Of a DNA stretch of 64,000 bases, positions 4,772 through 30,099 are shown in pieces (position 1 is the stretch's first letter; each line of letters begins with the position of its first letter). The position numbers and the translations under genes are program-made. Source of the DNA: Actinomycetota bacterium (lineage in GTDB: Bacteria; Actinomycetota; Actinomycetes; Nanopelagicales; Nanopelagicaceae); the NCBI GenBank assembly GCA_016870795.1, contig VGAJ01000002.1, forward strand, positions 1 to 64,000. Direction: 5' to 3'. Under the pieces are notes generated by a model. The model was not told where the DNA came from and did no database searches. It saw nothing but the letters and a program-made list of their open reading frames with translations.

Positions 4772-6375
4772 TTACCTTCTCTAGCGTCTCCTTGATCTAT
4801 CCCAACGCGCAGCGAACGATTGTGGAAGACATATCTTTTACAGTTAATGAGGGAGAGTTACTTCTTCTAATAGGCCACACTGGAGCAGGTAAGAGCTCGC
4901 TTCTCAAACTAATCAATGGCCTTATCCCGCATCACACTGGAGGAATTCTCACCGGCGAAATTAGTGTGGCTGGAAGAAGTACTAGAGCGTTAAAGCCTGG
5001 TGAGTTGGCAGATGTAGTAGGAATCGTTGGCCAAAATCCAGTTAATGGTTTTGTTTCAGACATCGTTGAAGATGAGATCGCTTTTGGCCTTGAGAGCCTT
5101 GGAATTGCCCCGGAGATCATGCGAAAGCGCGTTGAAGAAGTTTTAGATCTCCTTGCACTTGCTCCTTTGAGAAGAAGAAATATCTCAGAGCTAAGTGGCG
5201 GCGAGCAGCAGAGAGTGGCAATAGCTGCAGCCCTTGTTACAAATCCAAAGGTTCTCCTTCTTGATGAACCAACGAGCGCCCTTGATCCAATTGCAGCAGA
5301 GGAGGTCCTCTCCATTCTCCATCGCCTGGTTCACGATCTTGGACTTACGGTGATTTTGGCAGAACATAGACTAGAGAGAGTTATTGGATTTGTTGATCGA
5401 ATTATTCTGATCCACGGAGATGGCTCAGTTGACCTGGGACCTGCAAGGCAGATATTAACTAGCTCTCCAATTGCCCCTCCCCTAGTTGAGTTAGCAAAGA
5501 AATTGGAGCTTGGTGAAATACCGCTCTCAATTCGTGAATTTCGCAAAATTGCCCCAGAAATATCTGAAGCGCCAACCAAGGCCATTGAGAAACTTAACGG
5601 AGATGCAATATTAACTATTAACTCTGTCAGCGCTTCATATGATCAAGATCAGTCAAGTAAAGCTCTTGAGGATGTAAATATTCAAATAAATGGGGGCGAG
5701 ATTGTCGCGCTAATGGGAAGAAATGGCGCAGGAAAGACCACCTTACTTAAATGCGCGGTTGCTCAAGCTCCCCTTACTAAAGGTGAGGTTAGAGTAAATC
5801 AGAGAGATCCCAAGAGTTTTACAGATAAAGAGTTAATAAGATTCGTTGGATATATCCCGCAAGATGCAGGCGATCTTCTCTACGGCCAATCAATAAAGCA
5901 AGAATGTGATTTAGCTGATCTTGATAATGAAGTTGAGCCTGGAACTACCCTTGCTGTTTATCAGGAGTTGATGAAGATTCCAAGCCTTAATTCACATCCA
6001 AGAGATATTTCAGAGGGGCAGCGCCTTGGCCTTGCACTAAGCATCATCCTCTCTGCGCAGCCAGCTCTAGTCATACTCGATGAACCAACTAGAGGTCTTG
6101 ATTATGAAGCTAAGAAAGTGCTTATAAAGATACTAAAGCAGATTGCCTCAAGCCTTGATCGCGCAGTGTTGATATCAACTCATGATGTCGAACTAGTTGC
6201 TGAGGTGGCAGACCGGGTTATTTTTCTTGCAGATGGTGAGGTAATTGCAGATGGCAGCAGTAGAGAAGTGCTTAAAGCCTCCCCTGCCTTTGCACCGCAA
6301 GTTTCTAAAGCTCTTCCCAATAACAGCTGGCTCTCACTAAGCGATGTAGAAAGATGTCTAAGTGAGAAAAACTAG
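4768..6375 (+). CDS. ecfA: Duplicated ECF ATPase (EcfA1-EcfA2 fusion)
   Basis: Energy-coupling ATPase with two ABC domains in one 535-residue chain. Domain 1: Walker A GHTGAGKSS, signature LSGGEQQR, Walker B LLLDEPTSALDP. Domain 2: Walker A GRNGAGKTT, signature ISEGQRLG (a degenerate LSGGQ), Walker B LVILDEPTRGLD. The start chosen is GTG 4768, which overlaps the ecfT stop as GTGA and places the conserved ITFSSVSLIYP strand at the N-terminus. A longer frame from 4633 would only add sequence that is antiparallel to ecfT coding logic. The degenerate second signature suggests asymmetric nucleotide sites. It is part of the B12-riboswitch operon. Confidence 0.9.
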   Translation: MITFSSVSLIYPNAQRTIVEDISFTVNEGELLLLIGHTGAGKSSLLKLINGLIPHHTGGILTGEISVAGRSTRALKPGELADVVGIVGQNPVNGFVSDIVEDEIAFGLESLGIAPEIMRKRVEEVLDLLALAPLRRRNISELSGGEQQRVAIAAALVTNPKVLLLDEPTSALDPIAAEEVLSILHRLVHDLGLTVILAEHRLERVIGFVDRIILIHGDGSVDLGPARQILTSSPIAPPLVELAKKLELGEIPLSIREFRKIAPEISEAPTKAIEKLNGDAILTINSVSASYDQDQSSKALEDVNIQINGGEIVALMGRNGAGKTTLLKCAVAQAPLTKGEVRVNQRDPKSFTDKELIRFVGYIPQDAGDLLYGQSIKQECDLADLDNEVEPGTTLAVYQELMKIPSLNSHPRDISEGQRLGLALSIILSAQPALVILDEPTRGLDYEAKKVLIKILKQIASSLDRAVLISTHDVELVAEVADRVIFLADGEVIADGSSREVLKASPAFAPQVSKALPNNSWLSLSDVERCLSEKN

Positions 6376-7168
6376 AGCTAGGCCTTCAATACTTTCCTGG
6401 CTTCCAATATTTATTGGATCTACTCTCGGCCTTCTTTCATTTACCTGGCCGCTCTTTATTCCTGAGAGTGATTTCTTTCTATTAAGGCCAGACCCTGCTC
6501 GATTCTTAGCTTTATTTATCGCATTTCTAGCAGTTCTAGTGATTTCAGTGGAGATATCAAGAGGGGCTCTGGATAGCAAGATTGTTGCACTACTTGGAGT
6601 TCTCGCCGCCTTAATAGCAGCGCTGCGGCTAGTGGGAGCTGGAGCTGTGGGCGTTGAACCGATGTGGTTTCTCCTAATTATTTCAAGCTACATATTTGGA
6701 TCAAAGTTTGGGTTCTCACTTGGAGTTATCTCGATGGCAGTCTCTGCAGTTATTAGCGGAGGTATTGGACCTTGGCTCTCATTTCAAATGCTGGCTGCGG
6801 GGTGGATTGGGTTATTTGCTGGTTTATTTTCCAAGCAGATCAACAAACGATTTGAAATAATCACACTTGTAGCAATTGGAGTCATCAGCTCACTTCTCTT
6901 TGGTGCGCTCATGGATCTCCAGCTCTGGCCTTGGATTGCATCGACTAATACTCAGTTAGGTTTTATCGCCGGCGCACCGCTTATGGAGAATCTCTCACGC
7001 TTTCTAACGTTTCACTTAGCAACAGCTATGGCATGGGATATCCCAAGAGCTATCACTACCGCCCTTTTGATCGTTCTAAGCGCCAGGGCTCTACTGGCAT
7101 CACTTTCAAGAGCCGCAATGAGAATGGGTCTTACTTCACCTTCGATGGTTGAAAAGGTAAACGCTTAA
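6362..7168 (+). CDS. ECF transporter S component, probable cobalamin/corrinoid-specific (CbrT-like)
   Basis: Integral membrane substrate-binding subunit, 268 residues with a basic N-terminus and about seven hydrophobic helices from residue 14 to about 250. A central stretch VEPMWFLLIISSYIFGSKFG and GGIGPWLSFQMLAAGW resembles the substrate-pocket region of S components in this operon type. The GTG start at 6362 overlaps the ATPase gene by 14 bp. The B12 riboswitch upstream argues that the ligand is cobalamin; the ligand cannot be read from the protein alone. Its 3' end overlaps the convergent gcvT by 38 bp. Confidence 0.75.
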   Translation: MRKTRARPSILSWLPIFIGSTLGLLSFTWPLFIPESDFFLLRPDPARFLALFIAFLAVLVISVEISRGALDSKIVALLGVLAALIAALRLVGAGAVGVEPMWFLLIISSYIFGSKFGFSLGVISMAVSAVISGGIGPWLSFQMLAAGWIGLFAGLFSKQINKRFEIITLVAIGVISSLLFGALMDLQLWPWIASTNTQLGFIAGAPLMENLSRFLTFHLATAMAWDIPRAITTALLIVLSARALLASLSRAAMRMGLTSPSMVEKVNA

Positions 7169-8231
7169 TCACTCCTTGGCTTAAACGGCCTCGTATATCG
7201 ATAAATACCTGGCTTTCAAGTGGAATCTGACTATCAAATAGTCCTAGAGCGATGCCACTCTTTAACGAGGGTGAGAAGGTGCCACTTGTTACATAACCAA
7301 TTTTCTTGCCATCGATATCTTTGATTTCCATCCCAGCTCTAGGAATACCGCGATCGTTAAGCAAAATTGCTGCAAGCCTTCTATGTTTCTTTTCTGCGCG
7401 TTGCTTTTCAAGAACGCTCTTTCCCCAGAACTCTTTATCAAATGCCACAGCCCATGAAGCACTTGCCTCCACCGGAGTTATATCAGTTGAGAGTTCATGG
7501 CCATGAAGGGCATATCCCATCTCAGTTCTTAAAGTATCGCGAGCGCCAAGTCCTGCAGGAAGTCCGGAATACTTCTTTACTTTCTCTAGAAGTAAGTCCC
7601 AGATTTTTCTCGCATTTGCCCAAGAGGTGAGAATTTCATAGCCATGCTCTCCGGTATATCCGGTTCGACAGATGATTAGCGCTTCGGAGTCCAGCTGAAT
7701 TTCCATAAATGACATGTATTCAAGATTTACATCTACACCAAGATCTTTTAAGACATCAAGAGATTTAGGGCCTTGAAGAGCAAAGAGGGCATAACGTTCA
7801 TGTAAATTCTTAATCTCAAGAGTGCTTGGCGACTCTTTACTTACCTGATCTAAAACTTGCTGGCAGTTAGCAGCATTTGGAATGAGTAGAAAATGGGCGC
7901 TTGAGTAGCGATAAATGATTAGATCATCAATTACTCCACCGTTATCTCTCTGACAGAGAAGAGTGTATTGAGCTTGACCATCTGAGATTTTTCTCAAGTC
8001 ATTAGTAAAAATCGAATTTAAGTAATCCAGGGCCCCCTCACCTATTACTGAAGCTTTACCAAGATGGGAGACATCAAAGAGGCCCACAGTATTTCTCACC
8101 GCATTATGCTCATTTAAAACCCCACCACCATTTGCTGCGGGGTATTCGATCGGCATCTGCCATCCCCCAAAATCAGCGACTTTGGCCCCAGAATCAAGAT
8201 GGAACTGGTGTAATGGCGAATATTTGCTCAC
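7131..8231 (-). CDS. gcvT: Glycine cleavage system T protein (aminomethyltransferase)
   Basis: Transfers the methylene group from the lipoyl-bound aminomethyl intermediate on GcvH to tetrahydrofolate, releasing ammonia. The 366-residue protein has the N-terminal folate-binding domain with PLHQFHLDSGAKVADFGGW, DVSHLGK and FTNDLRK (the catalytic Asp), then GYTGEHGYEI and LGARDTLR, and a C-terminal barrel with YVTSGTFSPSLKSGIALG. gcvH and gcvP are not nearby. The GTG start at 8231 is 6 nt from TAGGTT on the minus strand and only 17 bp from the divergent pepA start; the two genes share one -10 sequence. Lipoate genes lipA/lipB lie about 9 kb away. Confidence 0.94.
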   Translation of the reverse strand: MSKYSPLHQFHLDSGAKVADFGGWQMPIEYPAANGGGVLNEHNAVRNTVGLFDVSHLGKASVIGEGALDYLNSIFTNDLRKISDGQAQYTLLCQRDNGGVIDDLIIYRYSSAHFLLIPNAANCQQVLDQVSKESPSTLEIKNLHERYALFALQGPKSLDVLKDLGVDVNLEYMSFMEIQLDSEALIICRTGYTGEHGYEILTSWANARKIWDLLLEKVKKYSGLPAGLGARDTLRTEMGYALHGHELSTDITPVEASASWAVAFDKEFWGKSVLEKQRAEKKHRRLAAILLNDRGIPRAGMEIKDIDGKKIGYVTSGTFSPSLKSGIALGLFDSQIPLESQVFIDIRGRLSQGVIKRLPFQPSKVK

Positions 8232-8236
8232 TCCAA

Positions 8237-8243
8237 TAACCTA
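8237..8243. promoter_or_regulatory. Shared, symmetric -10 element for gcvT and pepA
   Basis: The 7-mer TAACCTA reads TAACCT on the plus strand, 6 nt before the pepA ATG (8249), and TAGGTT on the minus strand, 6 nt before the gcvT GTG (8231). The 17-bp intergenic space is thus exactly 6 + 5 + 6. One RNA polymerase at most could use it at a time. Confidence 0.6.
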
Positions 8244-8248
8244 GCCCA

Positions 8249-9754
8249 ATGCCTACAACATTGCCCACTATCTCAGCCTCCGATAACTCAGTAATAGATG
8301 AAGTCCTAGTTCTGGGCTTTGCTCTAGATAAAAAAAGTAAGAAGTTTTCTATATTAAGCGGCGAGCTTCGAGTAGATCAGGGACCACTGCTTCAAGCCCT
8401 AACTGATCTTGGGGCAAGTGGGGCAAGTGATGAGGTAATAAAGCTTCCTGGAAGTGCAAGTAAGTTAATTCTTTTAACAGCGCTAACTCCTAAGGCCGAT
8501 GGCTCAATTGCCCATGAAGTATTGCGAAGAGCTGCCGGAGCTGCTGCAAGATCTCTTGCCGGAACTACCTCAGCAACTTTTGCTCTGCCACAAGCTTCAA
8601 AACAAGATTTTCGAGCAATAGCTGAAGGAGCCCTACTTGGCGCTTATACCTTTGATGAATTTAGAGGAAGTTCGAAGGCTGATAGAAAACCCGCGCTCAA
8701 GAAAATCACGATTTACTCGAAGAAGGCAAAAGATAAGAGTTACCTTCAAGGAATCAAACGCGCCGAGATAATTGCTAAATACACCCACCTAACAAGAGAT
8801 TTGATCAATACTCCGCCGAGTCATCTAACTCCAGATTCTTTTTCACTTCGATTTAAAAAGCTTGCTGCATCACTTGGCGTTAAAGTTGAAATACTTAATG
8901 AGAGTCAACTAATTAAAGGCGGTTATGGCGGAATAATTGGCGTAGGCCAAGGTTCTGCTAATCCTCCTCGTTTACTTCGCCTCTCCTATAGCGGCAAAGG
9001 CGCTAAGAAGCGTTATGCATTTATTGGAAAAGGAATCACATTTGATACTGGAGGTCTTGCCCTAAAGCCTGCTCAAGGTATGGAGGCGATGAAATCTGAT
9101 ATGAGTGGAGCAGCTGCAGTCTGCGCTGCGGTATTAGCAATTGCTGAACTAAAGCTTCCAATTCATATCGATGCTTGGGCGGCCCTGGCGGAGAATATGG
9201 TTAGCGATAAAGCAACCAGGCCAAGCGATATCATCACAATTTATGGTGGTAAAACCGTTGAAGTTTTAAATCCAGATGCAGAGGGTCGCCTAGTTCTTGC
9301 TGATGCCATGGTTCGCGCAGCAGAGGTTGGAAAGAAAGCTGGCGGTCTTGATGGGATGGTCGATGTTGCAACTCTTACCGGAGCTCAGGTCGTTGCACTT
9401 GGAACCAGGACAAGTGCGGTAATGACAAACAATGAGAGTTTTAGAGAGCAATTCTTAACTCTTGCAGAAATTACTGGAGAGGCATTCTGGCCAATGCCGC
9501 TACCAGAGGAGCTACGAGCATCTCTTGATTCGCCAGTTGCTGATATGGCAAATATCGGTGATCGAATGGGCGGGATGTTAGTTGCTGGGCTATTTCTAAA
9601 AGACTTTGTTGATTCAGAGCTGCCTTGGCTCCATCTAGATATCGCAGGCCCTGCCTATAACGAGGCAAAAGCACATGGATATACCCCAGTTGGCGGAACA
9701 GGTGTCGCACTTCGCACTTTAGTAGCCCTTGCTGAGTCATCGGCTGCCAAGTAA
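8249..9754 (+). CDS. pepA: Leucyl aminopeptidase PepA (M17)
   Basis: Cytosolic dimetal aminopeptidase that removes N-terminal residues from peptides; 501 residues, normal for the family. The N-terminal macro-like domain covers about residues 1-165; the catalytic domain contains the metal-binding GKGITFDTGGLALKP, KSDMSGAA and the M17 signature NPDAEGRLVLADAM. The C-terminus has MGGMLVAGLFL and WLHLDIAGPA. The ATG at 8249 has no Shine-Dalgarno but lies 6 nt after TAACCT, so the mRNA is probably leaderless. It precedes lpdA, a pairing common in Actinobacteria. Confidence 0.95.
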   Translation: MPTTLPTISASDNSVIDEVLVLGFALDKKSKKFSILSGELRVDQGPLLQALTDLGASGASDEVIKLPGSASKLILLTALTPKADGSIAHEVLRRAAGAAARSLAGTTSATFALPQASKQDFRAIAEGALLGAYTFDEFRGSSKADRKPALKKITIYSKKAKDKSYLQGIKRAEIIAKYTHLTRDLINTPPSHLTPDSFSLRFKKLAASLGVKVEILNESQLIKGGYGGIIGVGQGSANPPRLLRLSYSGKGAKKRYAFIGKGITFDTGGLALKPAQGMEAMKSDMSGAAAVCAAVLAIAELKLPIHIDAWAALAENMVSDKATRPSDIITIYGGKTVEVLNPDAEGRLVLADAMVRAAEVGKKAGGLDGMVDVATLTGAQVVALGTRTSAVMTNNESFREQFLTLAEITGEAFWPMPLPEELRASLDSPVADMANIGDRMGGMLVAGLFLKDFVDSELPWLHLDIAGPAYNEAKAHGYTPVGGTGVALRTLVALAESSAAK

Positions 9755-29013: not shown

Positions 29014-30099
29014 ACTCTTTAGTTCGCCGGCAATAAAAGCTTTCGTTCTCTTTAGAGCCTCTTCATCTGAGTACTGCTCAGGGGGAGATTTCATAAAGTA
29101 ACTAGATGGCGAAAGAAGTGGCCCGCCAATTCCTCTATCCATCGCAACCTTTGCGCAGCGAAGGGCATCGATAATTACCCCAGCAGAGTTTGGTGAATCC
29201 CAAACCTCAAGTTTGTATTCAATAGTTAGTGGAACATCGCCAAATGCTCGACCTTCAAGTCGAACAAAGGCCCACTTGCGATCATCGAGCCACTGCACAT
29301 AATCAGATGGCCCAATATGAACATTGCCCTCTCCTATATCGTAATCAAGCTGCGATGTAACTGACTGGGTTTTGGAGATCTTCTTTGACTCTAGGCGATC
29401 TCGCTCAAGCATATTTTTAAAGTCCATATTTCCACCAACATTTAATTGATAGGTTCTATCGACTTTGACTCCGCGGTCCTGGAATAGCTTGGTCAGGACT
29501 CGATGGGTAATAGTTGCGCCAACTTGAGATTTAATATCATCACCAACGATTGGAAGGCCAGCCTGTGTGAATTTATCGGCCCACTCAGGGGTTGAAGCGA
29601 TAAAGACTGGAAGTGCGTTAACAAAACCGCAGCCAGCATCAATTGCGCATTGGGCATAAAACTTTGTAGCAACCTCTGAGCCAACAGGCAGATAACAGAC
29701 TAGAACATCGACCTTGGCATCCTTAAGTGCTTTGACTACATCAACAGCTGGCGAATCAGACTCTGTAATTGTCTCCCTGTAATAGCGACCAAGGCCATCA
29801 TGAGTTACACCTCTTAAAACTTTAACTCCAGATTGAGGCACTTCAGAATATTTGATGGTGTTGTTTTCACTAGCCCAGATTGCATCTGAAAGATCAAGAC
29901 CAACTTTTTTCTTATCAACGTCAAATGCAGCAACAAACTTCACATCACCTACGTGATATCCCCCGACGACTACATTCATCAGACCGGGAATCTCTTGATC
30001 CCTTGCCGCATCTCGGTAGTAATGCACCCCTTGCACTAGAGAATTGGCGCAATTACCAATTCCAACTATTGCTACGCGGATCTCTTTATCTGGGCTCAC
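29011..30099 (-). CDS. ino1: Inositol-3-phosphate synthase
   Basis: Converts glucose 6-phosphate to 1D-myo-inositol 3-phosphate, precursor of phosphatidylinositol and mycothiol. The 362-residue protein has the NAD motif [59 protein letters not shown] and the C-terminal [11 protein letters not shown] of the short actinobacterial/archaeal type. It overlaps its PadR regulator by one base (TAGTG), the same pair found in mycobacteria. With the PimB'-type transferase at 40.9-42.1 kb, it suggests phosphatidylinositol mannosides. Confidence 0.95.

Follow-up and report, generated by a model that had tools for sequence, protein, structure and literature searches.

In the commonest class of bidirectional promoter, two transcription start sites (TSSs) separated by 18 bp depend on one symmetrical -10 element that both directions use, in which the T at -7 and the A at -11 of one promoter are reciprocal with those of the other (Middlemiss et al. 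2023, PMC10268837; Warman et al. 2026, PMC12825309). The class is also described by Warman et al. 2021 in Nat Microbiol, from Grainger's group, as cited in PMC12825309. RNA start-site sequencing located the published examples, most of them enterobacterial, and their divergent RNA is often a non-coding antisense transcript. Leaderless genes have been reported separately from Mycobacterium tuberculosis (PMC3898074) and Propionibacterium acnes (PMC3848588), with TANNNT some 7 nt ahead of the start codon, little or no -35 element and tolerance of GTG; according to PMC3898074, 22–26% of M. tuberculosis genes are leaderless, with this motif and no -35. The gcvT/pepA junction described here resembles the first group in its shared -10, its 18-bp distance between predicted starts and its expected use of one orientation at a time, and the second in the sequence before each start codon.

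The junction lies in a window of 64,000 nucleotides, the whole stretch of DNA that was analysed, from a Nanopelagicaceae genome (acI freshwater actinobacteria; 1.05 Mb, 79% complete, about 45% G+C). Both products are full-length members of their families, scoring above the cut-offs of NCBIfam models PRK00389.1/TIGR00528 (GcvT) and PRK00913.1-2 (PepA). At its other end, gcvT overlaps tail to tail, by 38 bp (7131-7168), a plus-strand ORF of 268 aa at 6362-7168. Positions 8229-8251 read CAC TCCAATAACCTAGCCCA ATG, and the division of the gap proposed in the initial annotation, 6 (8232-8237) + 5 shared (8238-8242) + 6 (8243-8248), adds up to the observed 17 bp (Table 1).

Table 1. Features of the gcvT/pepA junction in window coordinates; promoter elements and transcription starts are predictions
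Feature	Position	Strand	Remarks
gcvT, glycine cleavage aminomethyltransferase	7131..8231	-	GTG start 8231; predicted leaderless
pepA, leucyl aminopeptidase	8249..9754	+	ATG start 8249; predicted leaderless
spacer TCCAATAACCTAGCCCA, 17 bp, intergenic	8232..8248		14/17 positions invariant, 23 genomes
pepA -10 element TAACCT	8237..8242	+	6 nt from ATG; genome-wide 6-nt peak
gcvT -10 element TAGGTT	8238..8243	-	6 nt from GTG
core AACCT common to both -10s	8238..8242		A-11/T-7 of each promoter reciprocally paired; geometry as in PMC10268837
predicted pepA transcription start	8249 (8248 also possible)	+	inferred from -10 spacing
predicted gcvT transcription start	8231 (8232 also possible)	-	inferred from -10 spacing
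putative pepA -35 TGGCGA	8214..8219	+	inside gcvT; 17 bp from TAACCT; fixed distance conserved
gcvT codons 4-7	8211..8222	-	synonymous sites frozen in genus

The proposal that both genes are leaderless agrees with start-codon statistics for 464 kb sampled from the window's genome. Among the 434 genes called there, TANNNT stands 6 nt upstream of the start in 61 and 7 nt upstream in 30, and at other distances typically before about 5 genes, an approximately 12-fold enrichment at 6 nt. Sampling 1.2 Mb of G256, another family member, with a complete genome, gave the same peak, with 164 of 1142 genes at 6 nt and 69 of 1142 at 7 nt. Shine-Dalgarno (SD)-like 4-mers mark a largely distinct set of genes. 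Both gcvT and pepA carry TANNNT at 6 nt, TAACCT itself occurs at the equivalent place before six sampled genes, and neither start is preceded by an SD-like 4-mer at the usual place: GGAG and GAGG are absent 5-13 nt upstream in both CAATAACCTAGCCCAATG and CATTGGGCTAGGTTATTGGAGTG. One GGAG directly adjoins the GTG, too near to serve as an SD. Across the family, TANNNT lies 6-7 nt before the gcvT start in all 93-94 distinct loci examined (50 of 93 have TAGGTT at 6 nt, and the rest another TANNNT sequence at 6-7 nt); the predicted leaderless promoter of gcvT is therefore old.

The predicted starts, placed from the -10 spacing alone, are 18 bp apart, and the reciprocal -7T/-11A overlap of the published class is present at 8238 (A/T) and 8242 (T/A). 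A T at -18, stimulatory but not required, is found for gcvT (A8249 on the plus strand); pepA has C8231 instead, because the gcvT start codon is GTG. The initial annotation spoke of one 7-bp sequence, which is accurate for the union TAACCTA (8237-8243), and of a fully shared -10, which slightly overstates the overlap, the hexamers having 5 bp in common. A generic signature of this geometry, CAYN5TAN3TAN5RTG, matches the 1.05-Mb genome once, at this junction.

Because A-11 and T-7 of one element pair with T-7 and A-11 on the opposite strand, a second -10 comes nearly free at a 17-bp gap: once the first -10 and the gap are given, T8237 is the sole independent match. The weight of the case for a shared promoter is thus carried by conservation rather than by the -10 match itself. 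Only the gcvT promoter might be real, with TAACCT a by-product of -10 symmetry and pepA transcribed with a leader from a promoter within gcvT, antisense to it; TAACCT follows almost by itself from TAGGTT and one T, and pepA does have its own promoter or a leader in most other genera. We consider this quite improbable, since the pepA ATG has no SD-like sequence upstream and sits exactly 18 bp from the gcvT start in 23 genomes, and since constraint on T8237 and the -35-like block is restricted to genera that have the element.

Conservation of TAACCTA and of the 17-bp gap, the check named in the initial annotation, was found in 23 of the 24 genomes of the genus (g1). One genome (G003) was unscored, so 23 enter the junction alignment; most of them are bins from metagenomes, and 8-9 are closely related. 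Twenty of the 23 junction positions are invariant with both frames intact, variation within the spacer is confined to 8245, 8246 and 8247, and conservation ends sharply at both start codons. By comparison, mean third-position pairwise identity in the genus at invariant GcvT amino acids with four or six codons is 0.39. The pepA ATG is in the same place in 23/23 genomes, with downstream shifts in N-terminal length all multiples of 3. Position 8237, needed only for the pepA -10, is T in 31/31 relatives keeping the element, versus 3/41 other family members with the 6-nt spacing. The spacer segment TCCAAT (8232-8237) is invariant in the genus, has one substitution in genus g13 and is elsewhere free (0.30-0.42). 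In one g13 genome (L037), a substitution within the common core has changed the two elements at once (TAATCT / TAGATT); a one-base change that alters both promoters is present in relative G279. Compact gaps are usual in streamlined genomes, and the short gap might merely reflect this, with distant promoters driving both genes. That account is extremely improbable: divergent genes require a start between or inside them, and neutral compaction would not freeze 14/17 spacer bases.

Constraint also extends into gcvT. Third-position identities of codons 4-7, which span -38 to -27 relative to the predicted pepA start, are 1.0, 1.0, 1.0 and 0.83 in the genus, versus 0.26-0.34 in other genera, and the distance from this block to the spacer is unchanged even in a clade with a 5-residue insertion in the GcvT N-terminus. 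A strong -35 was sought genome-wide and only a weak one was found, with G, C and A at -21, -20 and -18 from the -10. TGGCGA fits this weak leaderless-promoter -35 and matches TTGACA poorly. The corresponding candidate for gcvT inside pepA (GGGCAA, 8266-8261) was rejected as unconserved among relatives. The earlier idea that the -35 of each promoter lies inside the other gene is therefore retained for pepA, on the frozen synonymous sites, and dropped for gcvT.

The constraint on T8237, on TCCAAT and on gcvT codons 4-7 is what would be expected of a second promoter, for pepA, overlying that of gcvT. The frozen TCCAAT and codons 4-7 could alternatively be a regulator binding site or a gcvT mRNA element. 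In particular, the conserved block (8211-8222 and 8232-8244) might be mainly a regulator's operator for one or both genes, set over two overlapping promoters. Conservation of TCCAAT and of the AATGGCG block goes beyond the apparent needs of a TANNNT promoter and beyond those of the crp/nth promoter described below. A genome-wide search for regulon-like recurrence of TAGGTTATTGGA, by contrast, found no enrichment (8 matches at one mismatch, against 11 for the control), and neither an inverted nor a direct repeat is kept in the clade. We regard a mainly operator role as unlikely, and it is in any case compatible with a bidirectional promoter rather than exclusive of it.

Our preferred reading, which we hold to be very likely, is that one bidirectional promoter of the housekeeping-sigma type occupies the 17-bp gap and yields two leaderless mRNAs, with the pepA direction aided by a -35 region within gcvT. 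RNA polymerase holoenzyme would bind in either orientation because the -11A/-7T of one promoter pair with the -7T/-11A of the other, the core A-N3-T being its own reverse complement, and at TAACCTA either orientation would melt the same base pairs. Transcription would start about 7 nt downstream of the -10, on the first base of GTG (gcvT) or ATG (pepA). The pepA direction would be helped by the region around TGGCGA in the first gcvT codons, and the gcvT direction would rely on its -10. We infer that a polymerase, each time it binds, serves one of the two genes, as we infer the transcript ends and the sigma factor used. Mutually exclusive expression at each instant, as first suggested, is sterically right in that two polymerases could not bind at once, but it need not matter in practice: the five E. 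coli bidirectional promoters that have been tested had so little basal activity that polymerases did not compete, and competition arose only once the promoters were activated (PMC12825309). Competition between gcvT and pepA would depend on promoter strength, and a regulatory link between glycine cleavage and leucyl aminopeptidase is therefore possible. We are doubtful of a stronger version, in which the merged symmetrical -10 is a repeatable end state in leaderless, streamlined actinobacteria and the either-or polymerase choice (at gcvT/pepA and crp/nth) was selected as an anticorrelated switch. If true, a single 7-mer would set how strongly two proteins are expressed relative to each other, as well as their start codons and 5' ends.

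A tree of pepA suggests how such a promoter could have formed. Genomes with the 17-bp form fall into a single clade with support 96, and the sister group, with support 90, is made up of genera g13 and g15, which keep TGGCGA-N17-TAACCTA and TCCAAT; in the one exception (L163) the core disappeared along with the adjacent gcvT. In g13 and g15 the pepA start lies tens of bases further downstream, with an SD-like GAGAGG in g15, and we take pepA there to be transcribed from the symmetrical promoter. The bases at the predicted pepA start are CAATAG in g13 and CAATG in g1, so that CAAT is kept in g13 although pepA is further downstream. Because the promoter is kept in the sister genera while pepA there has a leader, g1 probably lost the leader by deletion. 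The simplest order begins with a bidirectional promoter whose pepA transcript had a leader, followed by a deletion that put the ATG on the transcription start. The corresponding phylogenetic path would have the core promoter gained in the ancestor of the three genera and the pepA leader later lost in one. Several database records (L141, L146, L148, L156, L174 and L197, and L122 and L123) are titled Bifidobacterium breve, Streptomyces griseus or Clavibacter; their pepA falls inside Nanopelagicaceae on the tree or matches the genus at 99%, and the names look wrong.

The design recurs at other gene pairs. Among complete genomes from other genera, the generic signature was found between the genes for endonuclease III (nth) and a regulator of the Crp family. 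The 47 distinct crp/nth junctions sampled from genus g11 (loci L223-L272; example L211, 1501-1523) without exception place a shared TAAA[CG]TA, 6-7 nt from each start, in a gap of 17-19 bp. Only this motif and the start codons are kept; the remaining spacer bases vary freely. In g1, g2, g8 and g12 the two genes are mostly 54-98 bp apart, with separate predicted leaderless promoters. Judged from these junctions, crp/nth in g11 is an independent origin of the gcvT/pepA design. One further genome (G125) has a 17-bp divergent gap with a shared TACTATA core (L207, 1501-1523) between rmlA (glucose-1-phosphate thymidylyltransferase) and rmlB (dTDP-glucose 4,6-dehydratase).

Two other candidates were set aside. 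A penicillin-binding protein promoter, TTAGGCTAA, fits the generic pattern, but the opposite ORF has at most 58 codons, and it was not counted as a pair; the promoter is conserved in six genomes of the genus (L097 1501-1523, L221, L222), and the opposite, GTG-started ORF may be a small protein or chance. In a pair of a methyltransferase gene and a 181-aa ORF, both frames are open only in G020, and one is closed in G016 and G004.

Gap lengths place these junctions in a wider series. In G256, 39 of the 137 divergent pairs appear to be leaderless on both sides; among these the smallest gaps are 22-24 bp, at which the -10s share only the outer TA, and the others run from 25 bp upwards. In the window's genome the gaps of such pairs are 17, 23 and then at least 26 bp. 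Pairs with 22-24 bp gaps and -10s that have just the outer TA in common lie at 29193-29217 of another contig of this genome (C5, L088) and at 490361, 653782, 76954, 12169 and 707914 in G256. The series suggests that full -10 sharing is the recurrent end of a continuum, and its gaps of 17-19 and 22-24 bp match two start-site classes reported from E. coli, those of 18 and 23 bp (PMC12825309). For gene finding in acI genomes, this gives a rule: doubly leaderless divergent pairs with overlapping -10s would have gaps of 17-19 or 22-24 bp, and others at least 25 bp.

The junction joins two separately studied subjects, symmetrical bidirectional promoters and leaderless translation, at their geometric minimum, with predicted transcripts that are wholly coding. 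It would lend itself well to experiment as a natural test case, since a single substitution must affect both promoters while leaving both mRNAs untouched. That the design became fixed lineage-wide more than once, at gcvT/pepA in one genus and at crp/nth in a second, is an argument that a bidirectional promoter can last as a stable solution, rather than being only an early, noisy stage of promoter evolution.

The initial annotation noted that bidirectional promoters with symmetric -10 elements have been described and called the present arrangement an extreme compaction. It does not fall outside known kinds: the 18-bp symmetrical -10 is the commonest class (PMC10268837, PMC12825309), and the doubly leaderless form recurs in the family. 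Unlike the published symmetrical promoters, gcvT/pepA serves two proteins, both predicted transcripts are without a leader, and the junction, known here from sequence, is frozen genus-wide. Leaderless genes go unmentioned in the available text of PMC10268837 and PMC12825309. The M. tuberculosis and P. acnes reports (PMC3898074, PMC3848588) concern single leaderless genes; the available passages of PMC3898074 do describe closely juxtaposed divergent promoters and the divergent Rv1129c/prpD with leaderless starts, in terms that do not include a shared -10. M. tuberculosis lysG/lysE (PMC5648196) is likewise divergent, with mapped, overlapping -10/-35 elements and one leaderless lysE transcript, but it has a 108-bp gap, is regulator-controlled, and its overlapping promoters are not both leaderless. 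A literature search combining 'leaderless' and 'bidirectional promoters', by title, abstract and term counts over part of the journals, returned no doubly leaderless bidirectional bacterial promoter. The promoter type is thus known, and its doubly compacted, conserved and recurring form seems to be new to description. On its features, gcvT/pepA is best classed as a predicted symmetrical -10 bidirectional promoter combined with the actinobacterial TANNNT leaderless structure.
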